From a bacterium (GTDB lineage Bacteria; Joyebacterota; Joyebacteria; Joyebacterales; Joyebacteraceae): a stretch of DNA of 64,000 nt. The DNA lies in assembly GCA_025774245.1 (NCBI GenBank), contig JALGWI010000002.1, positions 98,648 to 162,647 of the forward strand, given 5' to 3'. The position numbers were made by a program, and so were the translations under genes. Each line of letters opens with the position of its first letter. Position 1 is the first letter of the stretch. Below, in pieces: positions 58,659-63,992 of the stretch. Under the pieces are notes generated by a model, which saw only the letters and a program-made list of their open reading frames with translations, had not been told where the DNA came from and did no database searches.

Positions 58659-60158
58659 CTAGAAGTACTTCGTGAAGCGCAGGCGCGCTCCGGCGAACTC
58701 GGGCTCGAAGAGGCAGACGCCCCCCGTGCACACCTTCCCGCCGCGCTGCGTGCCGCCCGCGAGCGAGACCTCGAGGTCGTAGTCGAGGATCATCCGTCGC
58801 ACCTCGAGGAGGAGCCACGAGTCGCGCGGTGCGCCCACCAGGTCCCGCGTCGTCGTCTCGAAGGTCCCGATGACGGTCGTCTCGAGCGTCGGATACCAGG
58901 CCGCCGCAGCGATGTAGTCGTTGTACGTCTCGAGCGACGGTTCCTCGACCCTCTGTCCTTCGAGCGTGATCTCGATCGTCTGCGTCCCGCCGACGATGAA
59001 CTCGAGCTCACCGACGCCGATCAAGTGCTCCGTGTATTTGCTCGTCCAGTCGTCGCCCTGGAAGAGGTACTCGCGCTGCCACGAGCCGGCGATCGCGAAC
59101 CGCGCGTTCTCGCTCAGATCGTGGACGTAGTACCCGTACATCTCCCAATGGCGGAGCCGGTTGTCGTGCCTCCGCGCCTCGGAGCTCCCGAACATGAGAG
59201 AGCCCTTGCCGCCGACGGGAGCGTTCGCCTCGGCGAGCCACCCCACCTCGTCGTTGAGGTTCACCTGGTAGGTCGCCCGGTTCATGAGCGTCCACAGGTG
59301 CTCCGACACGGCGGTCGGCGGGTTCACCACGTAGTGCTCGTAGGCCTCGTAGTCCTTGAACTCGCCGAAGAGCGTGAGCCAGTCGATCTGCGCCGTGGCG
59401 GTCACGTACGTCGCGTGCCCGTCGAGCGCCTCCTCGCCCGCGGGGTACTCCCCGTTCCTGGTCGCGTACTCGGCGCCCAGTGTCACGGGGCCGAGCCACG
59501 CGTCGAGCTCGCCGCCCAGAACGGTGTCCTCGAATCGGGCGGTCGCCTCGGGAAGGTCGATGTCGTCGTCAACGTCGAGGCTGATCCGCTCGACGGCGCT
59601 CGCCGCCAGACTGAGCCAGTCGGTCGCGCGCACGCCCGCCCGCGCAGCCCGGATCGTGTACTCCGTGCGCTGCGTCGGCGTGTGATCGTCGCCCGTGACG
59701 CCGGCCAGGAGAGCCCACTCGGTCGGACCCAGCCTGTACTCGGTCAAGAGACCATCGAGCGACGTGTCGTGCTCGACCGCGACCTCCTCGTAGCTCCTGA
59801 GGGTGATACCTCGCCCGAACGTCTCGAAGAAGCTCCCCGCCCTGAGGAGGAGATCCCCCTGCTCGTACGCCGCGTAGCGCTGCTTGATCCCGGCCGGAGG
59901 CACGTAGATCGCCGCCGGGTTGTACGAGGGATCCGAGAGCTGATACGCGCGGAAGACCCCGCCCACCGTCACCGGCCCCACGCCGAGGTCGAGCTCGAAC
60001 CTGCCGTCCGCCACCGACGCTTCCTCGTCGGTGTTGTAGAGGTACTCCCCCGTCACAACACCGCCGACGTAGACGTCGCTCTGACCCCGCGCTTCCGGAG
60101 GAAGGCACGAGATCAGGAGCACGAGAACGAGGGCGGACGCGATCCGTCCCCTACTCAC
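58659..60158 (-). CDS. Outer-membrane beta-barrel-like protein of unknown function
   Basis: Signal peptide LLISCLPPEARGQSD; alternating amphipathic strands (VYVGGVVTGEYLYN...), C-terminal ARLRFTKYF ending in Phe. Confidence 0.75.
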   Translation of the reverse strand: MSRGRIASALVLVLLISCLPPEARGQSDVYVGGVVTGEYLYNTDEEASVADGRFELDLGVGPVTVGGVFRAYQLSDPSYNPAAIYVPPAGIKQRYAAYEQGDLLLRAGSFFETFGRGITLRSYEEVAVEHDTSLDGLLTEYRLGPTEWALLAGVTGDDHTPTQRTEYTIRAARAGVRATDWLSLAASAVERISLDVDDDIDLPEATARFEDTVLGGELDAWLGPVTLGAEYATRNGEYPAGEEALDGHATYVTATAQIDWLTLFGEFKDYEAYEHYVVNPPTAVSEHLWTLMNRATYQVNLNDEVGWLAEANAPVGGKGSLMFGSSEARRHDNRLRHWEMYGYYVHDLSENARFAIAGSWQREYLFQGDDWTSKYTEHLIGVGELEFIVGGTQTIEITLEGQRVEEPSLETYNDYIAAAAWYPTLETTVIGTFETTTRDLVGAPRDSWLLLEVRRMILDYDLEVSLAGGTQRGGKVCTGGVCLFEPEFAGARLRFTKYF

Positions 60159-60741
60159 CGCTTCCCTCCGCGGCCGCAGGCGTCTCGGCCGCCTCGGACT
60201 CGTCCGGCGTCGCCGGCTCCTCGGGGCACTCCTCCGGGAAGAGCTCCTTCATCGTCTCCGCCAGCTCTTCGTGGTGACCCGGACGATACCCGGTCACCGA
60301 GTAGAGGATCGCTCCGTCGGTTCCGACGAGAACCGTCCGCGGCACGGAAGACACGTGGTACTTCTTCGCCACCTTCTGCGACGAGTCGAGCAGAACCTCG
60401 AACGTGTACCCCTTCGACTTGATGAAGGAGCCGACCCTCGAGCTCGATCTCGGCCCATCGATGGAGACGGCGACGACCTTCATGCCGCAGTTTCTGTAGT
60501 TGTCAAAGAGCTCCTGAAGCTGAGGGAATCCCTTGATACACGGCTTGCACCAGGTGGCCCAGAAATCAATGACCACCGGACCGTCCTTCAGGAGTTCCGT
60601 AAGCTTCACGTCCTTACCAGACAGATTCTTGAGCGTGAAATCGGGCGCCTTCTCACTGGCCGCCCACGACACAGCCGTACCCGCCAACACGAGAAGCGTT
60701 GCGCCGAGGATGACCAGGACGCTGGTTCTCCTGCTCTTCAT
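60151..60741 (-). CDS. TlpA-like secreted thioredoxin
   Basis: Signal peptide; VVIDFWATWCKPCIKGFPQLQELFDNYRNCGMKVVAVSIDGPRSS, SSVPRTVLVGTDG. Confidence 0.92.
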   Translation of the reverse strand: MKSRRTSVLVILGATLLVLAGTAVSWAASEKAPDFTLKNLSGKDVKLTELLKDGPVVIDFWATWCKPCIKGFPQLQELFDNYRNCGMKVVAVSIDGPRSSSRVGSFIKSKGYTFEVLLDSSQKVAKKYHVSSVPRTVLVGTDGAILYSVTGYRPGHHEELAETMKELFPEECPEEPATPDESEAAETPAAAEGSGE

Positions 60742-60973
60742 ATTCCCTCCATGGCTTACCGACACCATTATACCACCACAATGGCCAAAGGTCAAGAAGC
60801 CCGCCGGCGAGCAGCGGGACTCCGCATCATCCTATCCTCTATAGACGCAGCCCCCGGACGGGGATTCACCCCACCGCGGGAGCCGTTCGTGCCCGCAGAC
60901 TGCGCCATGAAGCACCTGGGGGCGCGGTCCTGGGAGTCCTGCAGCGGCCTTCGCCGGTTCGGTCCGGTCCGGG

Positions 60974-61819: not shown

Positions 61820-62212
61820 TCACGGCAGGACGCGGACGCCGGTCCCGACGTCCACCCGTTCGGCCAGCCTCCGAAGGTCGCCGTTTCGGAGACGGATGCA
61901 CCCTCGCGTCGAGTGCGACCCGATCAGGTCGGGTTCGTTCGTGCCGTGAATGCCGATCCCCTCCCACGGCGGACAGCAGAGGCGAAGGAAGAACGGGCCG
62001 TACGCTCTCACGCCCTCGTGCTCCCACTCGCTCGAGTCCTCGATCGATTCGATCTCGAACTCGCCCTCGGGGGTTCGGCAGTCGCCCTCGGCGAGCTTGT
62101 CGCCGCCGTCGGGGTTCGAACCGATCGCGACGGAGAACAGCTCCACGCCGTCCTCCGTCGCAAGTTCCAGCTCGAAGCGCGATTTCCAGATCGTCACGCG
62201 CGGCAGATTCAT
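61820..62212 (-). CDS. L,D-transpeptidase (YkuD) domain protein
   Basis: DCRTPEGEFEIESIED, GIGIHGTNEPDLIGSHSTRGCIRLRNGDL (HxGT...S-GCIRL catalytic motif). Confidence 0.88.
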   Translation of the reverse strand: MNLPRVTIWKSRFELELATEDGVELFSVAIGSNPDGGDKLAEGDCRTPEGEFEIESIEDSSEWEHEGVRAYGPFFLRLCCPPWEGIGIHGTNEPDLIGSHSTRGCIRLRNGDLRRLAERVDVGTGVRVLP

Positions 62213-62376
62213 CGATCGTCGACCTCGGTCGTGGCGCCTGCGTCATCGGCCCGCTCCGCGGGCCGGCAGCCCGTGCGCAGTCACGTCGACACACCGAGCC
62301 TGGGCAGCACCACCAGCTGCAGCAGAAGCCACACGCCGATGAAAACGATGGGCAGGGCCAGTTCTCCCCAGTTCAT
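62209..62376 (-). CDS. Candidate membrane-anchored mini-selenoprotein (55 aa, Sec at TGA 62283-62281)
   Basis: MNWGELALPIVFIGVWLLLQLVVLPRLGVST[TGA]LRTGCRPAERADDAGATTEVDDR*. GGAGG Shine-Dalgarno before ATG; terminal stop overlaps the YkuD ATG (ATGA); strong hairpin just after the in-frame TGA. Confidence 0.8.
62238..62280 (-). promoter_or_regulatory. Candidate bacterial SECIS element for the mini-selenoprotein
   Basis: Directly after UGA: CUGCG...GGCCCGC-GGA-GCGGGCC...CGCAG. Outer 5-bp stem, inner perfect 7-bp stem (or 6 bp with CGGAG loop), apical loop starting 23-24 nt after the UGA and containing GG. Confidence 0.8.
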
Positions 62377-62413
62377 CACTCGCCTCCCGCCGGCCTTCCT
62401 GCCGGTCTCCACG

Positions 62414-63097
62414 CTAGGCGCCCTCGCCCCCGACTCCGAGAAGCTCAACGACCTCGCTCCTGAGGCCGTCGATCATCGAGGGGTGGAATCCCACGTGCTT
62501 CGAGACGATCCGACCGTCCCGTCCAATAATGAACGTGGTGGGGATGCTCAGCACCTTGAACTGCGACTGCACGCTCTGGTTCCCCACGAGCACCGGGTAG
62601 CTCATCCGGTTGGTTTCGGCGAAGGGTCTCAACACGCGCGCGCCGCCCTTGTCGAGCCCGACGCCGACGACGACGAGCCCCTGGTCCCGGTACTCCTCAT
62701 AGAGGGACACGAGAAAGGGAATCTCCGCCCGGCACGGTCCGCACCAGGTCGCCCACATGTCGAGCATGACGACCTTCCCCTCGAACTCCGCGAGGGTGAC
62801 GTCGTTGCCGTCGAGATCCGGAAGGGTGAACGGCGGCGGGTACAGCCCGACCTCGACACCGATCCGGCGATCCGCGGCCGCCGATGTGGCGGCGCCCGGA
62901 TCCGTCTCTGCCTCGCTCGCGCCCTCGTCCGACGGCTGCGTCTCTTCGATCGCAGTCCCAGACGGCGGCGGCGCCTGCTCCTCTGCGTGACGCTCCTCGG
63001 GAACGGTCTCACCCGTTCCACCCCCGCAACCGGCCGCACCGACAACGAGGGCCGCTGCGAGAAGGAGGCACGGCACCAGCTTCGATCTTCCGATCAT
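62414..63097 (-). CDS. TlpA-like thioredoxin lipoprotein
   Basis: Lipobox-like VVGAAGCGGG; VVMLDMWATWCGPCRAEIPFLVSLYEEYRDQGLVVVGVGLD; SIPTTFIIGRDGRIVSKHVGF. Confidence 0.92.
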   Translation of the reverse strand: MIGRSKLVPCLLLAAALVVGAAGCGGGTGETVPEERHAEEQAPPPSGTAIEETQPSDEGASEAETDPGAATSAAADRRIGVEVGLYPPPFTLPDLDGNDVTLAEFEGKVVMLDMWATWCGPCRAEIPFLVSLYEEYRDQGLVVVGVGLDKGGARVLRPFAETNRMSYPVLVGNQSVQSQFKVLSIPTTFIIGRDGRIVSKHVGFHPSMIDGLRSEVVELLGVGGEGA

Positions 63098-63126: not shown

Positions 63127-63456
63127 CTAGAGCAGCGCCGTGATCTTGTCCTGGATGTGCTGCTTCTGCGCAGCGCCGATCAGCGAGTCGACCTGCGAGC
63201 CGCCCTTGAAGAACACCATCGTCGGGATGCTCCGGATGCTGAAGCGCTCGGACAGACCGGGGTTCTCATCGACGTTGACCTTCGCCACCTTGACCTTGCC
63301 TTCGTTCTCCGCCGCGACCTCCTCGAGGACGGGCCCGACGATCAGGCACGGCCCGCACCACGGCGCCCAGAAATCCACGAGCACGAGCGTGTCGGATCCG
63401 AGGACCTCAGTGTCGAACGTCTGGTCGGTAACCGCCACGGTGTTCGTCGTCTCCAT
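63127..63456 (-). CDS. trxA: Thioredoxin
   Basis: [62 protein letters not shown]. Confidence 0.95.
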
Positions 63457-63617: not shown

Positions 63618-63992
63618 CTAGGGTGTTTCGTCATCCTCAGGGCGGCCGTCCCCCGCTTCCTCGAGCAGGATGTCGAGGATCCGGGGCGCCGTCCCGTGCC
63701 TGATCCGGTAGCAGACCAGGTGCCCCTTCCTCTCCGACTCGATGAGGCCGGCGTACTTCAGCCGGGCCAGGTGCTGCGAGACCGACGGCTGCGAGAGCCC
63801 GAGGACCTCTTCCAACCCCTTCACGCACACCTCCCCGCCCGCCAGGATTTGGATGATCTTGAGCCGGGCGGGATGCGAGAGCGCCCGCAGAATCGCGGCT
63901 CCCCGCTCCAGCGGGGCGTCAGGTGCCGAGCCGGCAGCCTTTCCGGCCTCCCGGCTCTGGTTCCAGCGCTCCTGTGAGGACGGATGTTCCAT
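63618..63992 (-). CDS. ArsR-family winged-helix transcriptional regulator
   Basis: [62 protein letters not shown]. Confidence 0.92.

Follow-up and report, generated by a model that had tools for sequence, protein, structure and literature searches.

Bacterial SECIS elements of the type known from the E. coli formate dehydrogenase are modelled as hairpins with an apical loop of 3-9 nt, an upper stem of 4-16 bp and a G in loop position 1 or 2. The distance from the UGA to the apical loop is 16-37 nt and the minimum free energy is -7.5 kcal/mol or lower (PMC13188914). For the families of Tso, the three-selenoprotein operon, the same review cites Haft and Tolstoy 2025 (PMC13188914). With these systems we compared a hairpin on the minus strand of a bacterial DNA stretch of 64,000 nucleotides, here called the window. 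The UGA at 62283-62281 very probably encodes selenocysteine (Sec) and the hairpin at 62265-62247 would be its SECIS element, a reading to which we assign a probability of about 0.94. The original prediction had proposed a bacterial SECIS that directs Sec to the preceding UGA, and this proposal is strongly backed by a conserved UGA and hairpin at a near-constant distance and by a complete Sec machinery.

Read on the minus strand, the locus consists of the motif GGGAGG, six bases, an ATG (62376), 31 codons, the UGA (62283-62281) and the stretch CUGCGCACGGGCUGCCGGCCCGCGGAGCGGGCCGAUGACGCAG (62280-62238), behind which the frame stays open to a second UGA at 62211-62209. The predicted product of 55 codons, MNWGELALPIVFIGVWLLLQLVVLPRLGVSTULRTGCRPAERADDAGATTEVDDR, is a one-helix membrane protein with the Sec just past the helix and a Cys five residues further on (...LPRLGVST-U-LRTGC...). 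Ordinary gene calling would halt at the UGA and return a 31-residue fragment or nothing, which makes the family easy to overlook. The features of the locus are collected in Table 1.

Table 1 Features of the selenoprotein locus, in window coordinates
Feature	Position	Strand	Basis or remark
Small membrane selenoprotein gene (predicted)	62209..62376	(-)	ATG 62376-62374, stop UGA 62211-62209; orthologs with the same in-frame TGA
In-frame UGA, probably read as selenocysteine, residue 32	62281..62283	(-)	TGA here in 63/63 loci of named genomes
Putative apical SECIS hairpin, 8-bp stem, GGA loop 62257-62255	62247..62265	(-)	Inner-stem pairing and compensatory changes
Stretch of the original prediction, with outer CUGCG/CGCAG arms 62280-62276 and 62242-62238	62238..62280	(-)	Arms not conserved
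Likely ribosome-binding site GGGAGG, 6 nt before the ATG	62383..62388	(-)	By inspection
TlpA/ResA-like thiol-disulfide lipoprotein, upstream	62414..63097	(-)	
Thioredoxin (WCGPC)	63127..63456	(-)	Above the TIGR01068 cut-off
ArsR/SmtB-family repressor	63618..63992	(-)	Sub-cut-off similarity to BigR and TsoR
YkuD L,D-transpeptidase-like gene	61820..62212	(-)	ATG overlaps the selenoprotein stop (ATGA)

Of the 19 other genomes sampled from the phylum, 18 contained the gene, always with a single in-frame TGA at an unchanged residue, and this TGA is present in all 19 phylum genomes that have the gene. One near-complete genome of the same family (G013) contains SelB and tRNA-Sec, but the small selenoprotein gave no match there; the gene may have been lost. 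One genome per species (85,462 species) was scanned with the pattern W[LIF][LIV][LI]Q[LA]V[VI]LP, from which the Sec position is excluded. This yielded 63 loci in named genomes, which belong to Candidatus Eisenbacteria, Acidobacteriota, Planctomycetota, Desulfobacterales, Myxococcales, Chloroflexia, Nitrospirota, Armatimonadota and other groups, and the codon at the Sec residue was TGA in all of them (63/63). The family consensus is a single helix followed by LPRLGVxTU[LM]xxxC. Of 71 non-redundant sequences, 62 have the Cys at U+5, written as TGC in 46 and as TGT in 16; since both codons occur, the frame behind the UGA is protein-coding. One further family match, in G431, is weak and doubtful.

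A Cys homolog was found at the locus L120, where the codon is TGT (LPAMGIGTCMSGAC), in a genome that gave no tRNA-Sec match at the threshold used. A hairpin was looked for behind this Cys codon and none was found; the preceding gene encodes a pyridine-nucleotide-disulfide oxidoreductase fused to a rhodanese. The Cys homolog that marks a selenoprotein family is represented here by this one sequence, Cys forms being rare, and because they are nearly absent the test for Sec/Cys pairing rests on a single case. Apart from L120, the family was essentially Sec-only in the genomes sampled, and the Cys form used as a tblastn query against plasmids gave no match. At another locus (L156 in G504) an Arg codon stands at the Sec position together with an early TAA; that genome has a tRNA-Sec, and the locus looks like a case of decay or a sequencing difference.

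In 57 of 58 members the helix is followed by a flank more positive than the one that precedes it, and by the positive-inside rule the Sec and the Cys should lie on the cytoplasmic side. The gene order in the window is ArsR, thioredoxin, TlpA-like lipoprotein, selenoprotein and YkuD, and the contig ends at the window end, upstream of ArsR. In most orthologs the YkuD start overlaps or abuts the selenoprotein stop, an arrangement one would expect with ribosomes that read past the first UGA. A second thioredoxin-fold protein (WATWCKPC; 60151-60795, minus strand) is encoded downstream in the same neighbourhood. The same-strand neighbours at 88 loci included persulfide-dioxygenase-like proteins (29), rhodaneses (29), thioredoxins (24), FmdB-type zinc ribbons (17) and TauE (13), counts that overlap through shared domains (rhodanese domains in dioxygenase fusions, cross-hits between thioredoxin folds) and come from loci that are not independent. 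For representative neighbours Pfam bore out rhodanese, the metallo-beta-lactamase fold with rhodanese, TauE, ArsR, the YgaP-like transmembrane protein and the zinc ribbon. A compact cluster of thioredoxin and FmdB-type zinc ribbon recurs after the selenoprotein gene at Acidobacteriota loci (L106, L107, L110, L112 and similar ones), and at L112 the thioredoxin/zinc-ribbon/selenoprotein cluster is preceded by a YgaP-like transmembrane protein.

From this neighbourhood, it is possible, at somewhat less than even odds, that the protein takes part in the redox chemistry of persulfide or other reactive sulfur. Most simply, it would be a selenol anchored in the membrane and paired with a resolving Cys; thioredoxin would reduce it, and it would act on persulfides or related species. 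The Sec and the Cys may form a selenenylsulfide, for which the neighbouring thioredoxin would be the reductant. A fuller proposal is slightly more tentative still: in a cross-phylum, nearly Sec-only family of single-pass selenoproteins, the anchored selenol would take sulfur from the persulfides of rhodaneses and persulfide dioxygenases, or reduce them, at the expense of thioredoxin.

Two other functions were considered for the selenoprotein. It could be a ligand for metals or metalloids (Hg, As) or the partner of a sensor and not a thiol/persulfide redox protein, which would suit the ArsR/SmtB-family regulator in the operon and the several transport proteins with Sec that have been linked to metal resistance (PMC13188914). 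However, ArsR-family sulfide sensors are also known, namely BigR and YgaV (PMC5823870, PMC9774250), and the neighbours are thioredoxin, TlpA, rhodanese, persulfide dioxygenase, TauE and YgaP-like proteins, and we consider a metal ligand unlikely. The protein could also conduct electrons across the membrane from the cytoplasmic thioredoxin to periplasmic TlpA-like proteins, in the manner of CcdA/DsbD. The gene follows a thioredoxin and a TlpA-like lipoprotein in Eisenbacteria and lies beside a thioredoxin in other lineages, but a single helix whose redox residues all lie on one side offers no obvious path across the membrane, and TlpA is absent nearby at most persulfide-dioxygenase loci of Acidobacteriota; a conduit is accordingly doubtful. 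If the anchored selenol does act on persulfides, the bacterial handling of sulfide and persulfide would have a selenium-dependent branch. With this family, Sec use gains a simple marker gene, and selenium a testable link to persulfide or thioredoxin metabolism.

The apical hairpin reads CGGCCCGC-GGA-GCGGGCCG (62265-62247), has an energy of -16.1 kcal/mol and places its loop 23 nt after the UGA. The original prediction had its sequence, coordinates and spacing right and gave the inner stem 7 bp, where we found 8 bp. The hairpin lies within the published bacterial SECIS limits on 4 of 4 counts. The GGA loop and the 8-bp stem are inside the 3-9 nt and 4-16 bp allowed, a G occupies the first loop position, the spacing of 23 nt is inside the 16-37 nt allowed, and both the hairpin (-16.1 kcal/mol) and the 43-mer (-21.8 kcal/mol) are below -7.5 kcal/mol. 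The two strands of the window together contain 1397 UGA triplets; under the SECIS rules, an equal or better hairpin was found at 9 of them, and at 0 of the 118 UGAs that terminate open frames of at least 150 codons. The final UGA of the gene had been said to have no comparable hairpin; indeed none was found there under the SECIS rules, and the fold was no better than shuffles (z = +0.93).

Local folds of 48-52 nt that include the hairpin scored z -0.7 to -1.5 against dinucleotide shuffles, an unremarkable energy at such a GC content. These values and the 9 UGA triplets with as good a hairpin would suit an ordinary stop after a 31-residue membrane peptide, with the hairpin a GC-rich chance product or an intercistronic RNA element. 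Because its energy is near that of the shuffles, the hairpin taken in isolation is suggestive and not decisive, and the relatives decide. An Rfam scan of the region with a relaxed threshold gave no match at the hairpin. At 60254-60308 of the window, on the plus strand, a guanidine-III riboswitch match of 18.1 bits (gathering 36; E 1.4) was sub-threshold and is probably due to chance.

The hairpin had also been described as nested within the outer CUGCG/CGCAG arms. The outer stem forms when exactly 43 nt are folded, with pair probabilities of 0.87-0.97, and is absent from the minimum-energy fold after a few flanking bases are added. Among 14 ungapped orthologs, the inner seven pairs were formed in 95.9% of the cells, with compensatory changes at two pairs, as against 48.6% for the outer five pairs. 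Conservation among orthologs is thus seen for the inner hairpin and not for the outer stem. We rejected the nested-stem model on these figures, and since the outer stem is not conserved the description should shrink to the apical hairpin.

The best SECIS-rule hairpins of 82 members had a mean energy of -9.2 kcal/mol, compared to -3.0 kcal/mol when the same peptides were recoded synonymously; some loci enter this set twice, and the base composition of the recodings was approximated for each locus. The threshold of -7.5 kcal/mol was passed by 55 of the 82 members. The distance from the UGA to the loop was mostly 16-25 nt, and the more divergent members showed the same hairpin behaviour. By the simple contiguous-stem rule, the hairpin was weak or absent in a few members, L038, L044 and L084 among them, and weak in L020, L021 and L024, which have a 3-nt insertion.

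The genome that contains the window encodes a tRNA-Sec with the anticodon UCA, a full-length SelB over its cut-off, SelA, and a SelD with its own in-frame TGA and, behind it, a hairpin that likewise has a GGA loop. The contig also carries, about 3-4 kb to the left of the window, one tRNA-Sec and one selD. Two loci with selD and tRNA-Sec are present in G000, C30:94415-95571 (outside the window) and C97:2223-3388, with a DNA identity of 76-80%, which points to a paralogous copy or a contamination by a relative (the listed contamination of the assembly is 3.2%). G008 has two tRNA-Sec matches as well.

In raw counts that ignore phylogeny and assembly incompleteness, tRNA-Sec was detected in 45 of the 50 genomes with loci outside Eisenbacteria, in 40 of 47 family-positive Acidobacteriota compared to 86 of 152 others (p = 2e-4), and, among 366 genomes outside the home phylum, in 35 of 38 with the family compared to 120 of 328 without it (p = 1.7e-11). 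This co-occurrence, together with the hairpin-less Cys homolog in a genome without a tRNA-Sec match, further supports the Sec reading of the original prediction.

Set against the family as a whole, an ordinary stop is very improbable. The triplet at this one residue is UGA and never UAA or UAG in the 63 loci, an in-frame Cys is kept behind it with synonymous codon variation, and the hairpin is far stronger than in synonymous recodings across phyla; the family co-occurs with tRNA-Sec, the Cys homolog has TGT at the Sec position, and the downstream gene overlaps the distal stop. Readthrough of the UGA as another amino acid, by a near-cognate tRNA or as a reassigned codon, would agree with the open and conserved frame behind it and is scarcely credible beside the complete Sec machinery (tRNA-Sec(UCA), SelA, SelB and a SelD with its own UGA), a hairpin of the SECIS type and the UGAs that terminate ordinary genes in the window, the selenoprotein gene included. 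Taken together, our results strongly favour selenocysteine at this UGA. SelB carrying Sec-tRNA(UCA) would bind the apical hairpin, with its G-containing loop 23 nt after the UGA, and deliver Sec. Translation would then proceed through 23 more codons and end at 62211-62209, where the stop and the start of the following gene overlap.

No match above chance in NCBIfam release 20 or Pfam was obtained for the protein or for nine relatives, among them the Cys form and divergent members. NCBIfam holds recent selenoprotein models, for example TsoB and HUIPC, which were weakly touched by other proteins of the window. The table of the 119-family selenoprotein catalogue (PMC13188914) contains no single-helix UxxxxC membrane family, and literal motif searches of the literature did not find the family motif. 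Judged by the NCBIfam models, Pfam and this table, the protein family appears to be uncatalogued.

As a SECIS, the element is an ordinary bacterial one. The hairpin resembles the E. coli formate dehydrogenase type (model of PMC13188914) in that it directly follows the UGA with a G first in the loop, 23 nt away, and has an 8-bp stem and an energy well below -7.5 kcal/mol; it differs by the GGA triloop and has no conserved outer stem. SelD of the same genome shares the in-frame TGA followed by a GGA-loop hairpin, but it is another protein, its loop lies 17 nt after the UGA and its hairpin is weaker (-7.1 kcal/mol).

Tso resembles the locus in the ArsR-type regulator, whose similarity to TsoR stays below the cut-off (48 bits vs 115). 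The selenoprotein matched none of the Tso models, and TsoA, TsoB and TsoC were not found among the window proteins scanned, the contig ending at the window end. Neither PF11127 (YgaP-like transmembrane) nor the rhodanese profiles matched the selenoprotein sequence. YgaP and YgaP-like transmembrane rhodaneses and the BigR-type sulfide-oxidation operon are comparable to the family in that, in many Acidobacteriota, the small membrane protein stands beside rhodanese, persulfide-dioxygenase-like and TauE genes, and at L041 an ArsR and a YgaP-like rhodanese lie beside the selenoprotein. In contrast to the YgaP-like proteins, the selenoprotein has one helix with a Sec, and in Eisenbacteria its partners are thioredoxin and TlpA instead.
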